Shown: positions 40,907 to 56,142, counted from the first letter of the stretch. The stretch: DNA of 64,000 nt from Actinomycetota bacterium (GCA_004297305.1 SCTR01000006.1:70129-134128); one strand, 5' to 3'. Notes: generated by a model from the letters alone, not told the origin. Translations and numbers: made by a program.

Positions 40907-42073
40907 ATGGCGCTGGACCCCGACCCGGGCTTCGACCAGTTCGCGCTCCCGCCGGAACACGAGCAGTTGCGGCGGTCGGTGCGCTCGCTGGCCGAGGAGG
41001 TCATCGCGCCACGCGCCGCGGAGATCGACCAGACCGAGCAGTTCCCCTGGGACGTGCACGAGGCCCTCGCCGCGGCGGGCTTCAGCGCTGCTCACGTACC
41101 CGAGGCGTACGGCGGTGCCGGCGGCGACTCCCTGGCCGTCTGTCTGATCATCGAGGAAGTGGCCCGCGTCTGCGTGTCGTCGTCGTTGATCCCCGCGGTG
41201 AACAAGCTGGGCAGCCTCCCGATCATGATCGCCGGCTCCGCCGAGCAGGCCGAGCGCTACCTGGGACCGCTCGCCCGCGGCGAGGCCCTCATCTCCTACG
41301 CGCTGTCCGAACGCGAGGCCGGGTCAGACGCCGGCTCGCTTCGTACCCGCGCCGTACGCGACGGCGACGACTGGGTCATCACCGGGCAGAAGTCCTGGAT
41401 CAGCGGGGCCGGTGAGTCGGCGTACTACGTGGTCATGGCCTCGACCGACCCGGCCGCCGGGGCCCGCGGCATCTCGGCTTTCGTGGTGGAGAAGGACGAT
41501 CCGGGGCTGTCGTTCGGTGCGCCCGAACGCAAACTCGGTGTGCGCGGTTCACCGACGCGGGAGTTGCTCTTCGACTCCTGCCGCATCCCCGGTGACCGGC
41601 TGATCGGCGAACCCGGCACGGGTTTCGCCACCGCGATGCGCACGTTGGACCACACTCGCGTCACCATCGGCGCGCAGGCGGTCGGCGTCGCGCAGGGTGC
41701 CTTGGACTACGCGACCGCGTACGCCAGGCAACGGCAGCAGTTCGGCCGCAGCATCGGGGACTTCCAGGGAATCCAGTTCCTGCTGGCCGACATGGCGATG
41801 AAGGTGTCCGCCGCGCGAGCGCTGGTCTACACGGCTGCGGCCAAGAGCGAACGCGACGACCCGGATCTGCGCTACTTCGGTGCGGCAGCCAAGTGCTTCG
41901 CCGCCGATACGGCGATGGCGGTGACCACCGATGCCGTGCAGGTGCTCGGCGGTGCCGGATACGTCCGCGATCACCCCGTCGAACGCATGATGCGCGACGC
42001 CAAGATCACCCAGATCTACGAGGGCACCAACCAGATCCAGCGCGTGGTGATGGCCCGCCACCTCCTCGGGTGA
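40907..42073 (+). CDS. Acyl-CoA dehydrogenase
   Basis: FAD enzyme oxidising acyl-CoA in beta-oxidation. The 388-residue protein matches the family throughout: FSAAHVPEAYGGAGGDSL, the LISYALSEREAGSDAGSLRTRA FAD/substrate loop, the QFGRSIGDFQGIQFLLADMA helix, and the C-terminal VQVLGGAGYVRDHPVERMMRDAKITQIYEGTNQIQRVV, where the Glu of YEGT is the usual catalytic base. ATG 40907 has GAAGGAGA seven bases upstream. It is a lone gene after the tRNA. Confidence 0.95.
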   Translation: MALDPDPGFDQFALPPEHEQLRRSVRSLAEEVIAPRAAEIDQTEQFPWDVHEALAAAGFSAAHVPEAYGGAGGDSLAVCLIIEEVARVCVSSSLIPAVNKLGSLPIMIAGSAEQAERYLGPLARGEALISYALSEREAGSDAGSLRTRAVRDGDDWVITGQKSWISGAGESAYYVVMASTDPAAGARGISAFVVEKDDPGLSFGAPERKLGVRGSPTRELLFDSCRIPGDRLIGEPGTGFATAMRTLDHTRVTIGAQAVGVAQGALDYATAYARQRQQFGRSIGDFQGIQFLLADMAMKVSAARALVYTAAAKSERDDPDLRYFGAAAKCFAADTAMAVTTDAVQVLGGAGYVRDHPVERMMRDAKITQIYEGTNQIQRVVMARHLLG

Positions 42074-47737: not shown

Positions 47738-48856
47738 TCAGCCGCCGCAGGGCCGAGCCCGCAGCAGCATCGCCGCCAGCGTCAGGCCAGGGCCGAAGGC
47801 CAAGGCCACCAACCACGAACCCGGGGCCGGTGGACGCCGGCTCAGCTCCTCGTCGAGGACCAGCAAGACGGTCGGGGACGAGCAGTTGCCGTGCTCGGCC
47901 AGCACCCGCCACGACGAATCCAGCGCACCGGCGGCCAGCCCGAGACGATCGGCAGCGACCTCGAGAATGCGTGGGCCACCCGGGTGAACCGCCCAGGACT
48001 CGACCGCGGACCGTGTGACACCGGAGCGCGCCAGCAACTGCTCGACCAAGGGGCCGACGCAGTCGGCGAGCACGTCCGGAACCGCGGCGGACAATCCCAT
48101 CCGGAAGCCGAGATCGGTCACGTCCCAGGTCATCTTGTCCGCGTGGGCAGGTTCGGTCCGCACCACGAGGTCGACGATCTCCAGCCGGCCGGCGGCCAGC
48201 CCGCCCGGCGTGGGCTCCGGCGCCGCGCCGGGCGCCGGTTCCGGGCGGACGACGACAGCGGCTGCGGCGTCACTGAACAGCGCGTGAGCCACGACCTGGT
48301 CCAGCTCCCGCGACGGCGGCTGCGCGTGCAGGCTTGTCAGCTCGCAGCACAGCACCACCGAGACCTGGCCGCGGGACCGCACGAAATCCATGGCGACACC
48401 CAGCGCCGGAATCGCTGCGTAGCAGCCCATATGCCCGACGACCAGCCGGTGGGCGTCGGCGGGCAACCGCAGGTCGCGGGCCAGCGCGATGTCCAGGCCG
48501 GGCGTGGCATATCCGGTGCAGGACACCACGATCAGCTGCCCGACCTCGCCCGGGTCCACCCCGGCGGCCTCGAGGGCCGCCGCCACGGCCCGAGTGCCCA
48601 GCGGCACCGCGGCGGCCAGGTAGCGGGTCATCCGCTGGCCGGTCGACCACCCCGAGACGTCCTCGACCAGCGGGTTGACCACGGCGTGACGGCGCCGTAC
48701 GCCGGAGCCGGTGAAGATCTGGCGAGCCACCGCAGCCCGGCCGGCCGGGACGCGCGCGTGGAAGTAGCCGTCCCACAAGGCGTCCTGCGTGACCGACTCG
48801 GGGCAGGCCGAGCCGAAGCCGGCGATGACCGCGGTCGTCGGTACGCCGGCCGTCAC
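47738..48856 (-). CDS. Type III polyketide synthase
   Basis: Chalcone-synthase-like condensing enzyme that builds resorcinols, pyrones or similar aromatics from malonyl-type units and an acyl-CoA starter. The 372-residue protein has the catalytic triad Cys135 (GHMGCYAAIPAL), His281 (AVHPGGPRIL) and Asn314 (EHGNCSSPTVL), and the GFG-type loop LAFGPGLTLAAML near the end. GTG 48856 overlaps the acyl-CoA dehydrogenase stop (GTGA). It is the last of three overlapping genes: methyltransferase, dehydrogenase, PKS. Confidence 0.93.
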   Translation of the reverse strand: MTAGVPTTAVIAGFGSACPESVTQDALWDGYFHARVPAGRAAVARQIFTGSGVRRRHAVVNPLVEDVSGWSTGQRMTRYLAAAVPLGTRAVAAALEAAGVDPGEVGQLIVVSCTGYATPGLDIALARDLRLPADAHRLVVGHMGCYAAIPALGVAMDFVRSRGQVSVVLCCELTSLHAQPPSRELDQVVAHALFSDAAAAVVVRPEPAPGAAPEPTPGGLAAGRLEIVDLVVRTEPAHADKMTWDVTDLGFRMGLSAAVPDVLADCVGPLVEQLLARSGVTRSAVESWAVHPGGPRILEVAADRLGLAAGALDSSWRVLAEHGNCSSPTVLLVLDEELSRRPPAPGSWLVALAFGPGLTLAAMLLRARPCGG

Positions 48857-50040
48857 CACCGGCGCGGCCCGTCCTCGGCGTCCGGGTCGCCGCCCAGCGC
48901 GGCCACACCCAGCCAGTCCGCGCAGACGTCCGACGTCGCCGGTTGCAGTGCGCCGCAACGGGCGTCCCGATACAACCGTTCCAGGGCGTGCCCGCGGCGG
49001 GCAGCCGAGGTGCCCGCCGCCTCCAGCATCGACGCGGCGACGTCGGCCGCGGTGTCACCGGCGACGAGTTTGGCGCGCCATACCCAGCGGTTGGTCGCCG
49101 GCTCGCCGGGGGCCGCATCGATGAGCGCGGCGGCCCGACGCACGACCTGTCGAGCGGCGCAGACCTGGGCGTCGGCCCGGCCGAGCCGGGCGCGTACCTG
49201 CGGAAGACCTTGCAGCCCACGGCTTCCCAGGTGCGCCACGGCCGCGTCCAGCGCCGCCTGCGCCACCCCGACGTACACCGCCGCGTAACTGGCGATCAGC
49301 CACTGCGGCATCACCTCGGCCAGCAGCAGGGCCAGGCCCTCCACGCCACCGAGCAACGCGGTGTGGTCGACCACGGTGTCCAGGTGCAGGTCGTGGCTGC
49401 CGGTGGCCCGCATCCCGAGGGAGTCCCAGGTCCGTTCCACCACGGTGCCGGGTCCGGCGGGGACCAGGAAGTACGACACGGTCTGCTCGGCGACCGCCGA
49501 CCGGGCGGCGACGAGGTAGGCGTCGGCGGCCGCGGAACCGGAGACGAACGCCTTCGAGCCGGTGATGCGGTACCCGCCGTCGACCGGGACGTACGACGTA
49601 CGCAGCTGCGACAGCCGCGCCCCCGCGCCGCGTTCACTCATCGCCACCGCGTAGAAGGCGCCGCCGGCGGCATCGGCAAGGACCTTGTCCCGCACCGCGA
49701 ACGACGACTCCGGCGCGCCCACGGCATGCGCCAGCGCGTCCGGCGTACGGGCCAGCGCACCGGTCACCGACGCGTGCATGTTGAACACCAGGGCGGTCGC
49801 GCCGCTACCGGCGGCCAGGACCATGGCGACCTCGACGTACTCGGCGAACCCGGCACCGAGTCCGCCGAGCCGCGCGGGGACCAGCAGGCCGAGCAATCCG
49901 CTGGAGCGCAACGCCGCCAGGTCGGCCAGCGGGAACTCGCCCGGGCCGTCGTTGGCGGCGGCGCGCTCGGCCAGACCGGCAGCGACCCGCCTGGCCGCCT
50001 GGACCACCTCCGGTGACTCGGCACCGGGTCCGGTGGTCAT
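48853..50040 (-). CDS. Acyl-CoA dehydrogenase-like flavoprotein of the PKS operon
   Basis: A 395-residue acyl-CoA dehydrogenase-fold protein. Typical blocks: GLLGLLVPARLGGLGAGFAEYVEVA, FYAVAMSERGAGARLSQLRTSY, SKAFVSGSAAADAYLV, SLGMRATGSHDLHLDTV, and the C-terminal RRGHALERLYRDARCGALQPATSDVCADWLG. Some such proteins are hydroxylases rather than dehydrogenases. The usual catalytic Glu near the end is not clear. ATG 50040 overlaps the methyltransferase stop. It probably oxidises the PKS starter or product. Confidence 0.87.
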   Translation of the reverse strand: MTTGPGAESPEVVQAARRVAAGLAERAAANDGPGEFPLADLAALRSSGLLGLLVPARLGGLGAGFAEYVEVAMVLAAGSGATALVFNMHASVTGALARTPDALAHAVGAPESSFAVRDKVLADAAGGAFYAVAMSERGAGARLSQLRTSYVPVDGGYRITGSKAFVSGSAAADAYLVAARSAVAEQTVSYFLVPAGPGTVVERTWDSLGMRATGSHDLHLDTVVDHTALLGGVEGLALLLAEVMPQWLIASYAAVYVGVAQAALDAAVAHLGSRGLQGLPQVRARLGRADAQVCAARQVVRRAAALIDAAPGEPATNRWVWRAKLVAGDTAADVAASMLEAAGTSAARRGHALERLYRDARCGALQPATSDVCADWLGVAALGGDPDAEDGPRRW

Positions 50041-50822
50041 CGTTTGACTCCCCACGCCTGGACCAGCACGGCGGTCGACCACGTCGGCACCATGGCACCC
50101 GCCGGCGCGCCCGGGCGCCCGGCCCGGCCGGTCCACCAGCGCAGCAGCGACCCGGCGGTCGGCCGCAGCCCGCGCATCGTCAGGGAGACCCCGTGGGCCG
50201 CGCAGAGCCGGCGCAGCGCGACGCGGTCGACCAGCAGCGCCGGATCGTGGACGCCGGAGGGGACCCGCGGGAGCCGCTCGGCGAGGTGGATCGCGAGGAG
50301 CCGGCTGAGCGCCGTGGCGGCCAGCGTGTCCACCACCAGCAGCCCGCCGGGGCGCAGGATCCGGCACGCCTGCGCCACCACGGCGGGCAGGTCGGTGACG
50401 TGTTCGAGGATCTCCCCGGCGCAGACCACGTCCGCGCAGCGGTCCGGCAGCGGCAGCGCCGCGACGTCGGCCACCGCACCGGCCATGCCGCGGTCCCGCG
50501 CGACCCGCAGCGCCGAGGACACCAGGTCGACCCCGACATGCCGGTAGCCCAAGGCCTGCGCGTGCGGGGCGAATCCCCCGCCGCCGCACCCCAGATCGAC
50601 CAGCAGTGAGACCTGCGGCTGCGCGGCCGGGGGCAGCAACCGGGCCCGCGCGGCGGCCAGCCACTGCAGCGGTGCCAGTGGGCCGACCGGGTCCTGCCAC
50701 GATCCGGCCAGGTCGTCGTAGAGCGCCGGATCGTTACGGCGCCAGCGGCCCGGCCGCCGTCCTGCTGCCGGCGGCTGCGCAGCGCCGGACGACAGTCGCC
50801 CGTCCGGCGACGCGAGGACCAC
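50037..50822 (-). CDS. SAM-dependent methyltransferase (UbiG-like) of the PKS operon
   Basis: A 261-residue class I methyltransferase. Motif I is LVDLGCGGGGFAPHAQALG, motif II VGVDLVSSALRVARDRG, and motif III-like ICRILRPGGLLVVDTLAATAL (reads AQACRILRPGG). The overall plan resembles UbiG/UbiE O-methyltransferases. The N-terminal part ALYDDLAGSWQDPVGPLAPL is typical. GTG 50822 starts the operon. It likely methylates a phenolic or carboxyl group of the polyketide. Confidence 0.85.
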   Translation of the reverse strand: MVLASPDGRLSSGAAQPPAAGRRPGRWRRNDPALYDDLAGSWQDPVGPLAPLQWLAAARARLLPPAAQPQVSLLVDLGCGGGGFAPHAQALGYRHVGVDLVSSALRVARDRGMAGAVADVAALPLPDRCADVVCAGEILEHVTDLPAVVAQACRILRPGGLLVVDTLAATALSRLLAIHLAERLPRVPSGVHDPALLVDRVALRRLCAAHGVSLTMRGLRPTAGSLLRWWTGRAGRPGAPAGAMVPTWSTAVLVQAWGVKR

Positions 50823-51004: not shown

Positions 51005-53758
51005 ATGGTGCCGACCGTGACGAGCAGAGGGGGAGCCCGGCCGCCGCGTCGCTGGTCGTTCGGTTGCCTGCTCGTCGCCGCCACCGTGACGGCCGGCCTG
51101 CTCGGCCCGGCCAGTGCGGCGCAGGCCAAAGTGAAGGCGCCCAAGGTGGATCGCGCCGCTGCGGCCGCGCAATGCCCGATCGGCGCCGGAGCGTCCTCCG
51201 GCAACGCGAAACTCGAAGCGAAGCGGGCCGCCGAGCTGTACGCGGGCACCGTCGTACTCGGCAGCTACGGCACGTTCCGGTGGGGCGCGAACCCGTCCTG
51301 GAAGCCCAAGCGCACCCTGGACGCGTCGGGCAACGCCAACATGCACGGGCTGGACTACCTGTTGCCGCTGCTGCGCGAAGGCGTCCGCACCGCGAATGCG
51401 GCGTACGTCAACCGGTTCTACGCGATCCTGCGCGACTGGGTGAAGGACAACCCCAAGCGGCCGCTGTCGTCCACCGGCGCGTACTCCCAACTGCCGCAAG
51501 GACTTCGGCTGGTCACGATGGTCTGCGCGGTCGCCGGTCCGCAGGGCAAGGCCGGCTGGCTGCGCAAGGCGTTGAAGGCGCAGGCGGACGCGGTCGCGAA
51601 GGGCCCGTGGGTGCCGGGGAACAACACCGCGCTCGCCCAGTCCCTCGGCCTGCTCGCGGCGGGCCAGACGCTGCGACGCGGCGACCTGGTGAACCTCGCG
51701 GCCGCGCGGATCGACGACATCGCCGGACGCGCCCTGACCGCCGACGGGTCCGACCGCGAGAACGCCATCCAGTACGGCCTGACCAACTACGTCTGGTACG
51801 GCGAGGCAGCCCAACGCCTGGCCATCGCCGGTCGGCCCACCCCGGCGAACCTCAACCGGATCGCCGCGATCCCGTCGTTCCTGGCCTGGGCCACCCGGCC
51901 GGACGGCCGGCTGGAAGCCGTCGGCGACTCCAGCCCCGTCGATCTGCCCAACAGCTTCGGCGACCCGGCGGTGGCGTGGTCGGCCACCCAGGGCGCGGCC
52001 GGCGCCCCGCCCTCGACGCTGTTCGCCACCTTCGCCGGCGGCTACGCCTTCGGCCGCAGCGGCTGGGGTACCGGCGCGCGCTCCTTCGCCGACGAGACGT
52101 TCTATTCGGTGCGCTACGACGTCCCCGGCGGATCCTCGGCCCACCAGCACGCCGACGCCGGCGCGCTGACCCTCGCCTCGCACGGCGCCCAGCTGCTGTT
52201 CGACTCCGGCCCGTACCGCTACGCCAACGACGCCAAGCGCGCCTACGTCCGCAGCCGTGCGGCGCACAACGTCGTGGACCTGCCGGGTGTCCCGTACACC
52301 GCCGGAGCGACCGAGGTGCTCCAGACGCGCGGCGGCGCCTCCGACGACCTCACCTTCATCGACCACGGTTACGCCGGCGCCACGGTGACCCGGACCATCC
52401 ACTACGACCGGGCCCACGACCTGTTCGTCGTCTGGGACACCGCCGAGTCGGACACCCCACGGACGTTCACGCAGAACTGGCAGCTGGGTCGGGACCGCTC
52501 GGTGGTGGCGACCAATGCCGCCGGCGGTACCGGCATCGCCACCACCGGCGCCGGCGCGAACCTGACGATGCGCTGGGCGGGCCCGCAGCCCGCGGTCAGC
52601 ACCGTGAAGGGCCGCAGCGCCCCGATGCTCGGCTGGAACAGCCAGGCGTACGGCGAACTCGTGCCGGCCCCCACCGTGCAGGCCACCCAGACCGGGACGT
52701 CGGCCAGCTGGCTGACCGTGCTGGTGCCCCGCCGCGACGGGGTAGCCGACAACCAGATCGTCACGCAGGGCGCCGCCGGCCCGACCAGCGCTGCGGTGTC
52801 GATCCAGGCCCCCGGGGTCGACACCGTCATCGAACTGCAGCGGCGGGATCCGGCCGCGACGCTGCCGCTGGCGACGGCCATCGTGACCGGCCCGGCCGAC
52901 GGCAGCGCGATCGCCGCCACCGGCACCGACGTGACGTGGGCCGTCGGTTCGCCGGCCGGCCGGGCGCAGGTCGCGACGTACCGCGTGGTGGTCGACGGCA
53001 CCGAGGTGGCCACCGTCGGCGCCGGGACCACGTCGTACCGGCTGGACGGGCTCGGCCAGGGTCCGCACACCGTGCGGGTCGACGTGGTCGAGACCGGATC
53101 GGTACGGCGGACCGGACCGACCACGCGGTTCGTGGTCGACACGATTGCGCCGGTCTACGTCGGTACGCCGTCGCTGCGCCTGGACGGCGGCGCGCTGAGC
53201 GGCGCGAAGGTGCCCACGACGTTGTCCTGGAACGTGACCGACAACCGGGGCGTGGTCCGGCAGCTGGTCAACGGCGCCGAGGTCCCCGCCGGCTCCACCA
53301 GCCGGTCGTTCACGCTGGGCGCCGGTGCCGGCGCGGCGATCGGGCTGCAGGCATTCGACCGGGCGGGCAACGCCGCGAGCCAGGTGGCAGTGACCGGGCC
53401 GATCGGGGTGGACCCTCGCGGCTTCACCACCGCCGCCGGCTGGCGCACCGTCGCGCGCTCCTCGCTGCTGGGCGGTACGGCAGTAGCGGCCAAGCGCAAG
53501 GGTGTCTGGGCCACGGCCACGGTCTCGGCTCACTCGATCGGGATCGTCGGCAGCAGGATGCCGAAGGGCGGCACGCTGCAGGTCTTCCTGGACGGTGCCC
53601 TGGTGGCCACGATCGATCTGCGGGCGCCCGGCCGCCGCGATCGGCAGCTGCTCTGGGTGGTCAACCTGCCGACCACCGGCACGCACCAGCTGGCGCTCAA
53701 GGCCAAGGTGAGCAAGAAGCGTCCGCAGGTCGTCGTGGACGGCCTGGTCACACTCTGA
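51005..53758 (+). CDS. Secreted heparinase II/III-like protein with C-terminal Ig-like region
   Basis: A 917-residue exported protein, predicted to degrade acidic polysaccharide. A signal peptide (RRWSFGCLLVAATVTAGLLG with AAQA cleavage region), an alpha/alpha barrel (residues about 60-360), a heparinase II/III beta-sheet domain with YDVPGGSSAHQHADAGALTLASHG and RSRAAHNVVDLPGVPY (catalytic His and Tyr candidates), then Ig-like modules (ATYRVVVDGTEVATV and following). ATG 51005 is chosen, but the ribosome site is weak. It has no partner enzyme beside it. Confidence 0.85.
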   Translation: MVPTVTSRGGARPPRRWSFGCLLVAATVTAGLLGPASAAQAKVKAPKVDRAAAAAQCPIGAGASSGNAKLEAKRAAELYAGTVVLGSYGTFRWGANPSWKPKRTLDASGNANMHGLDYLLPLLREGVRTANAAYVNRFYAILRDWVKDNPKRPLSSTGAYSQLPQGLRLVTMVCAVAGPQGKAGWLRKALKAQADAVAKGPWVPGNNTALAQSLGLLAAGQTLRRGDLVNLAAARIDDIAGRALTADGSDRENAIQYGLTNYVWYGEAAQRLAIAGRPTPANLNRIAAIPSFLAWATRPDGRLEAVGDSSPVDLPNSFGDPAVAWSATQGAAGAPPSTLFATFAGGYAFGRSGWGTGARSFADETFYSVRYDVPGGSSAHQHADAGALTLASHGAQLLFDSGPYRYANDAKRAYVRSRAAHNVVDLPGVPYTAGATEVLQTRGGASDDLTFIDHGYAGATVTRTIHYDRAHDLFVVWDTAESDTPRTFTQNWQLGRDRSVVATNAAGGTGIATTGAGANLTMRWAGPQPAVSTVKGRSAPMLGWNSQAYGELVPAPTVQATQTGTSASWLTVLVPRRDGVADNQIVTQGAAGPTSAAVSIQAPGVDTVIELQRRDPAATLPLATAIVTGPADGSAIAATGTDVTWAVGSPAGRAQVATYRVVVDGTEVATVGAGTTSYRLDGLGQGPHTVRVDVVETGSVRRTGPTTRFVVDTIAPVYVGTPSLRLDGGALSGAKVPTTLSWNVTDNRGVVRQLVNGAEVPAGSTSRSFTLGAGAGAAIGLQAFDRAGNAASQVAVTGPIGVDPRGFTTAAGWRTVARSSLLGGTAVAAKRKGVWATATVSAHSIGIVGSRMPKGGTLQVFLDGALVATIDLRAPGRRDRQLLWVVNLPTTGTHQLALKAKVSKKRPQVVVDGLVTL

Positions 53759-53794: not shown

Positions 53795-53852
53795 TTGCGG
53801 CTCGATGCTGGCCGGACGAGGGTCAGCGTGGCCCGCGGCCGGGAGGACCACT

Positions 53853-54584
53853 GTGGGAACCACGACGTACCTGGGCATCGCCCCCGACGAGTTGCCGATC
53901 CGGGTCCTCGTCGTCGACGACGAGCCCGACCTGGCCGATCTGGTGGCCACGGCGCTGCGATTCGACGGCTGCCTGACGGCCACCGCGGGCAACGCCGACG
54001 ACGCGCTGCGCGCCGCGAGGACACTGCGCCCGGACGTCGCCGTACTCGACGTCATGCTGCCCGACGTCGACGGCCTGGAACTGCTGCGCCGGCTGCGGGC
54101 CGAACAGCCCGACCTGCCGGTGGTCTTCCTCACCGCCCGGGGCGAGACCGGTGACCGGATCGCGGGACTGCGGGCCGGTGCGGACGACTACGTCGCCAAG
54201 CCGTTCTCGCTGGAGGAACTGCTCGCGCGCCTCGGCGCGGTGCTGCGCCGGTCCGGGCGGGTCCACGACCGCACCACCACACTCGTCGTCGCCGACCTCA
54301 CCCTGGACGAGGACAGCCGAGAAGTACGGCGCGGCAACGACTCCGTGGACCTGACTCCCACCGAGTTCGACCTGCTGCGCTTCCTCATGCTCAACGCGCG
54401 CACGGTCGTGTCGAAGGCCCAGATCCTCGACCGGGTGTGGCGCTACGACTTCGACGGGCGCACCAGCGTGGTCGAGATCTACATCGGCTACCTGCGGAAG
54501 AAACTCGACGTCGGCCGCGAGCCCCTGATCCATACGGTCCGGGGCGTCGGCTACGTCCTGCGCCCGCCGCGGGTGACGGGATGA
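53853..54584 (+). CDS. OmpR/PhoB-family response regulator
   Basis: A 243-residue two-component regulator. The receiver domain has the acidic pair in VLVVDDEPDLADLV, the phospho-acceptor Asp in VAVLDVMLPDVDGLELL, Thr in VVFLTARGE and Lys in YVAKPFSLEELLARL. The C-terminal winged helix is LTPTEFDLLRFLMLNARTVVSKAQILDRVWRYDFDGRTSVVEIYIGYLRKKLD. GTG 53853 has GGGAGGA five bases upstream. The kinase gene follows four bases later. Confidence 0.96.
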   Translation: MGTTTYLGIAPDELPIRVLVVDDEPDLADLVATALRFDGCLTATAGNADDALRAARTLRPDVAVLDVMLPDVDGLELLRRLRAEQPDLPVVFLTARGETGDRIAGLRAGADDYVAKPFSLEELLARLGAVLRRSGRVHDRTTTLVVADLTLDEDSREVRRGNDSVDLTPTEFDLLRFLMLNARTVVSKAQILDRVWRYDFDGRTSVVEIYIGYLRKKLDVGREPLIHTVRGVGYVLRPPRVTG

Positions 54585-54588
54585 ACCG

Positions 54589-56142
54589 TTGCGGCGCCTA
54601 GTGTCCGGCCTGCCGCTGCGGACCCGGCTGGTCGCCGGACTGCTGCTGGTCACCGCCGTGGCCTTCCTCGTCGTCGGGCTGGTCACGACGCTGTCGTTGT
54701 CGACGTACCTCGTGCGCCGGACCGACGAGACCGTGCTGAGCGCGGTACCCCCGGGGCCGCCGGGCGGCCGTGGGCCCGCCGGCACCCCCGACCGGATCGC
54801 CCTCGACCGAGCCCGGTCGGTCTGGGACCTCACCGTCGCGCTGGACGACGACCAGGCCGTCGTCGTCGCCTATCGCAGCCCGGAGACGCTGGTGCTGTCC
54901 GAGGCCGATGTCGCTGCGCTGCAGGCTGTCCCGGTCGGCGGAACCACTCCGGTCACCGTGGACCTCGGAGCCGCCGGTTCGTTTCGCATGGTCGCGCTGC
55001 CGTGGGGCGACAGCGGACAGGTGCTCGTCGGCGGTGACTCGCTGGCCAGTGTGTGGGACACGGTCCGACGGCTCGTGCTGATCGAAGGCCTCGTGTTCGC
55101 GGCGGTCCTCGTCGTGGTCGGCATCGCCGGCACGGTGCTCGTGCGGCTCTCGCTGCGGCCGCTGCGCCGCGTGGCGACGACCGCGACAGCCGTTGCCGCA
55201 CTGCCGCTGTCCGACGGTACGGTCGCCATCGACGTACGGGTTCCCGAGGCCGACCCGCGTACCGAGGTCGGGCAGGTCGCGACCGCCTTCAACGAGATGC
55301 TCAACCACGTCGAGGCGTCGTTGCAGGAGCGGCAACGAACCTCCGAACGGCTGCGCCGCTTCGTCTCCGACGCCGGACACGAACTGCGGACCCCGTTGGC
55401 GGCGATCCGCGGGTACGCCGAACTGTTCCGCCGGGCCGGGCGCGACCATCCCGAGCAGGCCGAGGTGTCGGCGGACCGGATCGAGTCGGCCGCCAGCCGG
55501 ATGGGCGTCCTGGTCGACGACCTGCTGCTGCTCGCGCGACTGGACGAGGGCCAGCCGCTCACCCCCAGCCCGGTCGACCTCGTCGCGACCGTCTCCGAGG
55601 CGGTCGACGAGGCACGGGCCGCCGGACCCCACCACCACTGGCAGATCCGTTCTGCCGCTGGCGATTCCGCCGATACCGGCGGCGACGGCAAGGGACCGGT
55701 GTGGGTGCTCGGGGATCCGGTACGGCTGCACCAGGTGGTGGCGAACCTGCTGGCCAACGTCCGGGCCCACACCCCTGAGGGCACCACGGCCACGGTGCAG
55801 GTCACGGTCGAGGATGCCCAAGCGGTGCTCGAGGTCGCCGACGACGGCCCGGGGATCCCGGCCGACCTGGTGCCGCGGGTCACCGAACGTTTCACCCGGG
55901 CAGACCTCAGCCGCTCACGCGCCTCCGGCGGCAGCGGCCTGGGCCTGTCGATCGTGGCCGCGATCGTCGCTGCCCACGACGGGACGCTGAGCGTGCAGTC
56001 CCCGCCCGGAGCGGGTACCCGGGTGACGATGCGGCTGCCGCTCGCCCCGGTTCAGGGAGCCGAGGCCACCGGCAGCAGCTCGGGGTCGACGACGTCGGGA
56101 TCCAGATCGGGCTCGGCGAACATCGGCGAGGAGATCAGGTAG
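54589..56142 (+). CDS. Sensor histidine kinase
   Basis: A 517-residue membrane kinase partner of the upstream regulator. Two membrane helices (about residues 15-40 and 160-185) frame an extracytoplasmic sensor; a HAMP segment follows (LRPLRRVATTATAVAALPL), then the H-box SDAGHELRTPLAAIRGYAEL, N-box NLLANVRAHTPEG and G-boxes DDGPGIPADL and GGSGLGLSIV. The start is TTG 54589 or GTG 54601. Its last 91 bp overlap the convergent methylglyoxal synthase gene. Confidence 0.95.
   Translation: MRRLVSGLPLRTRLVAGLLLVTAVAFLVVGLVTTLSLSTYLVRRTDETVLSAVPPGPPGGRGPAGTPDRIALDRARSVWDLTVALDDDQAVVVAYRSPETLVLSEADVAALQAVPVGGTTPVTVDLGAAGSFRMVALPWGDSGQVLVGGDSLASVWDTVRRLVLIEGLVFAAVLVVVGIAGTVLVRLSLRPLRRVATTATAVAALPLSDGTVAIDVRVPEADPRTEVGQVATAFNEMLNHVEASLQERQRTSERLRRFVSDAGHELRTPLAAIRGYAELFRRAGRDHPEQAEVSADRIESAASRMGVLVDDLLLLARLDEGQPLTPSPVDLVATVSEAVDEARAAGPHHHWQIRSAAGDSADTGGDGKGPVWVLGDPVRLHQVVANLLANVRAHTPEGTTATVQVTVEDAQAVLEVADDGPGIPADLVPRVTERFTRADLSRSRASGGSGLGLSIVAAIVAAHDGTLSVQSPPGAGTRVTMRLPLAPVQGAEATGSSSGSTTSGSRSGSANIGEEIR

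Follow-up and report, generated by a model that had tools for sequence, protein, structure and literature searches.

An actinobacterial operon combining a type III polyketide synthase with an acyl-CoA dehydrogenase-fold flavoprotein and its likely relation to the agq/los phenolic-lipid clusters

Analysis of a 64,000-nucleotide stretch of actinobacterial DNA (hereafter the window) revealed three overlapping genes on the minus strand, in the order methyltransferase, acyl-CoA dehydrogenase (ACAD)-fold flavoprotein and type III polyketide synthase (PKS). Gene 1 (50037..50822, GTG start) codes for a class I SAM-dependent methyltransferase recognized by the Methyltransf_11 profile, gene 2 (48853..50040, ATG start) for the ACAD-fold flavoprotein with the Pfam Acyl-CoA_dh N, M and C domains, and gene 3 (47738..48856, GTG start) for the type III PKS with the Chal_sti_synt N and C domains. 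The ATGA and GTGA overlaps claimed in the original prediction were both read in the sequence of this strand: the methyltransferase stop and the ACAD start share the ATGA at 50037..50040, and the ACAD stop and the PKS start share the GTGA at 48853..48856; the PKS might equally well start at a second GTG, at 48859. The genome (2.68 Mb, 13 contigs) carries a single copy of the PKS and of the ACAD orthologue. The operon is flanked by a heparinase-like gene and a small cold-shock-like gene. The divergent neighbour, at 51005-53758 on the plus strand of the window, codes for a heparinase II/III-like protein (PF07940, 6.9e-19) and is adjoined at 53805-56142 by paired genes for a response regulator and a histidine kinase.

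The methyltransferase matched Pfam Methyltransf_11 (3.1e-19) and NCBIfam UbiG (1.6e-19, under the cut-off of that model), and a homologue is located directly upstream of the ACAD or the PKS gene in nearly all related loci. The protein is predicted to be the O-methyltransferase of a hydroxylated alkylresorcinol.

Gene presence and order in the neighbouring loci were determined by tblastn, as ORF calling by codon-position GC was rough and several genes were mis-called. Two samples were analysed: a GTDB scan with the window PKS as query, from which 80 loci were kept, and 395 genomes drawn evenly from the class, in which ACAD orthologues were accepted at E <= 1e-90. Genome mining for the three-gene order, which had been proposed as a check on the original prediction, recovered the arrangement in both. 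The ACAD gene lies immediately upstream of the PKS gene in 14 GTDB loci besides the window, and the methyltransferase gene precedes it wherever the contig extends far enough; most of the remaining GTDB loci carry the methyltransferase and the PKS only. An ACAD orthologue was identified in 23 of the 395 class genomes (the window's genome counted), always directly before a homologous PKS (23/23), with the methyltransferase upstream in 22 of them, while in the exception, G290, the contig ends before it. Four further class genomes harbor a weaker ACAD at the same place, and no ACAD orthologue away from the PKS was found in the 395-genome sample. ACAD and PKS are co-stranded in all 73 locus records, some of which are duplicates of one place, and the junctions between them in the same records, duplicates included, range from about -27 to +140 nt. 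Chance juxtaposition of the three genes was rejected, since their order is conserved far beyond chance.

A two-gene form, methyltransferase and PKS without ACAD and without UbiA, is found in Geodermatophilaceae (L007, L014, L023 and about 40 more loci). A NarL-type response regulator follows the PKS on the same strand in 44 loci of this form and a GAF-domain histidine kinase is located downstream of the PKS on the opposite strand in 43, which suggests that expression of the two-gene form is controlled by a signal. Three PKS homologues (G067:C120:824-1885, G400:C42:163301-164365 and G073:C62:11219-12268) contain one in-frame TGA each and represent decayed copies, frameshifts or sequencing errors.

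The PKS of the window matched the Pfam chalcone/stilbene synthase N (2e-19) and C (3e-20) domains and is 55-62% identical to more than 100 homologues, the best of the GTDB scan being about 61% identical. The catalytic triad, predicted to be complete, indeed consists of Cys145 (GHMGCYAA, 48422..48424), His291 (VHPGGP, 47984..47986) and Asn324 (HGNCSS, 47885..47887), all on the minus strand and all invariant in an alignment of 15 homologues. Trp244 (48125..48127, minus strand) is likewise invariant in this alignment, while PKS18 has a Leu at this position according to the HMMER alignment to 1ted. In ArsB, a Trp at position 281 reportedly tips the outcome towards resorcinols rather than pyrones (PMC9927152); Trp244 probably occupies the position of this ArsB residue. 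The third gene is predicted to code for an alkylresorcinol synthase. In the PKS tree the window protein forms a long branch (0.79) and its placement is unsure; it belongs to one homologous set with the PKS of the agq-scored Saccharomonospora piscinae locus L077 and with the Micromonospora PKS.

The best NCBIfam model for the PKS was that of DpgA (NF042429), with 157.9 bits against a cut-off of 425, and none of the dpgBCD partners was found among the window neighbours; identity as DpgA, the 3,5-dihydroxyphenylacetyl-CoA synthase, was rejected because the score is far under the cut-off. We consider it unlikely that the PKS yields an alkylpyrone or other scaffold and that the operon product is genuinely different. 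This top model, however low its score, the presence of the alkylpyrone synthases PKS18 and Pks11 among the closest solved structures, and an identity of only about 60% to any other PKS would agree with such a scaffold. On the contrary, LosA of a syntenic locus described below makes alkylresorcinols, Trp244 in place of the PKS18 Leu is consistent with the resorcinol-steering Trp of ArsB, given the presumed equivalence of the two residues, and an O-methyltransferase together with a ring oxygenase would fit a resorcinol better than a pyrone.

The losA region of Micromonospora endolithica comprises genes for UbiA, a putative methyltransferase, an acyl-CoA dehydrogenase, losA, two hypothetical proteins, CarD, IspD and IspF (PMC7587189, Table 1), and the order methyltransferase, acyl-CoA dehydrogenase, type III PKS is identical to that of the window operon. 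The UbiA and CarD-IspD-IspF neighbours of losA are common to relatives of the window operon but not to the window itself, where the heparinase-like and small cold-shock-like genes are found instead. Expression of losA under a strong promoter, inserted before losA only, led to alkylresorcinols, the loseolamycins, in a heterologous host (PMC7587189). The published work activated losA alone and neither the methyltransferase nor the ACAD gene.

The agq cluster of Actinoplanes missouriensis (Awakawa et al. 2011) reportedly makes 6-alkyl-4-O-dihydrogeranyl-2-methoxyhydroquinones; its database entry is BGC0001077, the alkyl-O-dihydrogeranyl-methoxyhydroquinone cluster. Like the window operon, agq combines a type III PKS with tailoring genes, three of which, agqB-agqD, are adjacent, and one step each of hydroxylation, methylation and prenylation is needed for its product. 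If agqB-agqD code for an ACAD, a methyltransferase and a UbiA protein, as they presumably do, the ACAD would be the hydroxylase by elimination. We infer that agqB-agqD include an ACAD and that there is one-to-one orthology with the window operon, while the UbiA homologue of the latter is unlinked, unlike in the agq type. In Phytohabitans, orthologues of agqB-agqD adjoin agqA. The T3PKS region of S. piscinae (contig 1, 519335-560387) was scored by antiSMASH as agq, 57% (PMC7380521). In the corresponding locus, L077, homologues of the methyltransferase, ACAD and PKS of the window operon are accompanied by UbiA, and the L077 PKS, at contig position 539335-540387, is in the exact centre of the agq-scored region. 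The operon thus belongs to the already described agq/los cluster family, and the proposal that it makes an undescribed small natural product is not upheld, as the losA gene order is published (PMC7587189) and a homologous ACAD-bearing locus has been scored as agq (PMC7380521).

The three-gene logic of type III PKS, methyltransferase and flavin oxidoreductase is also that of srs from Streptomyces griseus and pkq from Mycobacterium smegmatis, which lead to methoxylated benzoquinone lipids, although the order is reversed: the PKS comes first in srs/pkq and last in the window operon. The srs/pkq oxidoreductase is a Rossmann-type FAD hydroxylase and is not known to have the ACAD fold. Pfam searches of the window operon identified no Rossmann-type FAD hydroxylase as redox partner; an ACAD-fold protein takes the place of the flavin hydroxylase of Streptomyces srs, and this part of the original prediction was right.

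The flavoprotein matched all three Pfam Acyl-CoA_dh domains (N-helical, middle beta and C-helical), its AlphaFold model is a confident ACAD fold (pLDDT 82, pTM 0.85) and the FAD-site motif MSERGAG is retained. A canonical acyl-CoA dehydrogenase with an intact YEGT Glu is encoded some kilobases from the operon, at 40907-42073 on the plus strand of the window; it is unrelated to the operon and was used as a contrast. The residue that aligns with its YEGT Glu, the catalytic Glu position of dehydrogenases, is Pro367 (48940..48942, minus strand), which is invariant in 32 homologues and lies within an invariant stretch that ends with ATSDVCADWLG in most of them. The IVD-type catalytic position in helix G presumably holds no Glu either. 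His89 (49774..49776, minus strand), part of the motif NMH (Asn87-Met88-His89) that is invariant in the 32 homologues, aligned with a His of 5gj7/5z8t and is a candidate catalytic residue. The C-terminus carries a distinct and invariant motif, RDARCG-L-PATSDVCADWLG, while the C-terminal His used by DszC-type monooxygenases is, judging from known motifs, presumably missing.

By sequence and by fold, the best solved matches of the flavoprotein were 5gj7/5z8t, the latter titled a flavin-containing monooxygenase, followed by the nitrososynthase DnmZ and TdsC. In the fold search the E-values of monooxygenases and dehydrogenases were less than 10-fold apart, and because acyl-CoA dehydrogenases score nearly as well as monooxygenases the fold alone does not decide between them. 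Group D flavin monooxygenases combine the ACAD fold with aromatic hydroxylation (PMC10696468). The window ACAD shares the fold of these two-component enzymes (DszC/TdsC, DnmZ and HpaB type) but has a C-terminal motif of its own, and its operon is without a dedicated flavin reductase: two PF01613 flavin reductase genes, whose products could provide reduced flavin, were found in the genome, none of them inside the operon.

The ACAD is missing from one acidimicrobial and six Pseudonocardia loci, where a PF01494 FAD monooxygenase is encoded nearby, with a score exceeding the threshold of a 3-hydroxyphenylpropionate-hydroxylase-type model; none of the loci compared holds both enzymes. In the PKS tree the six Pseudonocardia loci formed one clade beside the ACAD-bearing rows, so that they stand for about one replacement of the ACAD by the PF01494 enzyme and give only a hint. 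The substitution of the catalytic Glu by Pro367, the monooxygenase as nearest solved relative and the Pseudonocardia replacement together make ring hydroxylation the most likely reaction, and we predict that the ACAD is a group-D-like flavin monooxygenase which acts on the alkylresorcinol ring, most likely prior to O-methylation, and not a desaturase of the starter. A literature search covering AgqB/C/D and alkylresorcinol hydroxylases retrieved no description of the ACAD reaction.

The original prediction had allowed for both desaturation and hydroxylation. Ring hydroxylation is the better supported of the two, while desaturation of the fatty starter ahead of the PKS, with the protein acting as an acyl-CoA or acyl-thioester dehydrogenase, is improbable and is disfavoured by the absence of the catalytic Glu, replaced by Pro in 32/32 homologues, and by a helix G position which we likewise take to be without Glu. 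A PKS that accepts fatty acyl-CoA would be a natural consumer of a desaturated starter, and the three ACAD Pfam domains and the MSERGAG motif are kept; losA alone, on the contrary, gave both saturated and less saturated alkylresorcinols, a range ascribed to the acyl pool of the host. Oxygenation of the alkyl chain instead of the ring would agree with the (omega-1)-hydroxyl of loseolamycins A1 and A2, whose BAC also contains the ACAD gene, but is very unlikely: these compounds were obtained with a promoter before losA only, the hydroxyl was assigned by the authors to host hydroxy fatty acids, the PF01494 replacement of aromatic-hydroxylase type points to the ring, and group D flavin enzymes act on activated aromatic or heteroatom sites and are not known to attack unactivated C-H.

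Taken as a ring-hydroxylating enzyme, the ACAD fits the reading that we hold to be likely, in which the operon encodes an agq/los-type pathway to a phenolic lipid, from alkylresorcinol to methoxyhydroquinone. The PKS would extend a long-chain fatty acyl-CoA by condensation with three malonyl-CoA and fold the resulting chain to a 5-alkylresorcinol. The ACAD-fold protein would receive reduced flavin from a reductase encoded elsewhere and form a C4a-hydroperoxyflavin, which would hydroxylate the electron-rich resorcinol ring, and the methyltransferase would O-methylate the resulting triol to a 6-alkyl-2-methoxyhydroquinone. A UbiA-family prenyltransferase, in the window organism one encoded elsewhere on the contig, may append a (dihydro)geranyl group. 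We infer each of these reactions, their order and the product; the sequences themselves show the content, order and conservation of the genes, the PKS triad, the lost dehydrogenase base, and a UbiA homologue and two flavin reductases in the genome. A further proposal is rather doubtful: the ACAD would be a monooxygenase locked to this one PKS whose active site, with neither the dehydrogenase Glu nor the C-terminal His of DszC-type enzymes, is of an unrecognised kind, and the product in this organism with its small genome would be a benzoquinone lipid, either not prenylated or prenylated in another way, that may serve as a respiratory electron carrier.

Of the 14 GTDB ACAD loci, 11 have a UbiA-family prenyltransferase gene upstream (tblastn; Pfam UbiA), while none was found in the window flanks, and the related loci L013 and L081 are likewise without a nearby UbiA. 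A homologue with 45% identity is encoded on the same contig as the window operon (G000:C6:338183-338965), unlinked to it, and is the only UbiA match in the genome at E <= 0.01.

The operon can now be annotated as agq/los type instead of as an orphan cluster, and the agq/los gene set, known from a few actinomycetes, is spread over many actinobacterial families. What continues to be of interest is the enzymology of the ACAD-fold protein, along with the prenyltransferase encoded apart from the operon. The ACAD-fold enzyme, never found apart from the PKS in the sampled genomes, offers a clean target for studying how this fold could have evolved into a ring hydroxylase.

Further neighbours were noted downstream of the PKS in the related loci. 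CarD, IspD and IspF are encoded directly downstream of it in L006, L008, L009, L012, L049, L061, L064, L070 and L142, an association with isoprenoid precursor genes that recurs from locus to locus; this group was not found beside the window operon. An isopentenyl-diphosphate isomerase gene follows the PKS in Pseudonocardia (L003:9034-9588 and L005:9034-9603), again pointing to prenylation. In the Geodermatophilaceae MAG loci L004, L013 and L081, the PKS is followed in a row by genes for a membrane protein (DUF6529) and a Rieske protein, identified by Pfam in L004 and by homologues in L013 and L081; this pair may act as redox partner of a quinone product.
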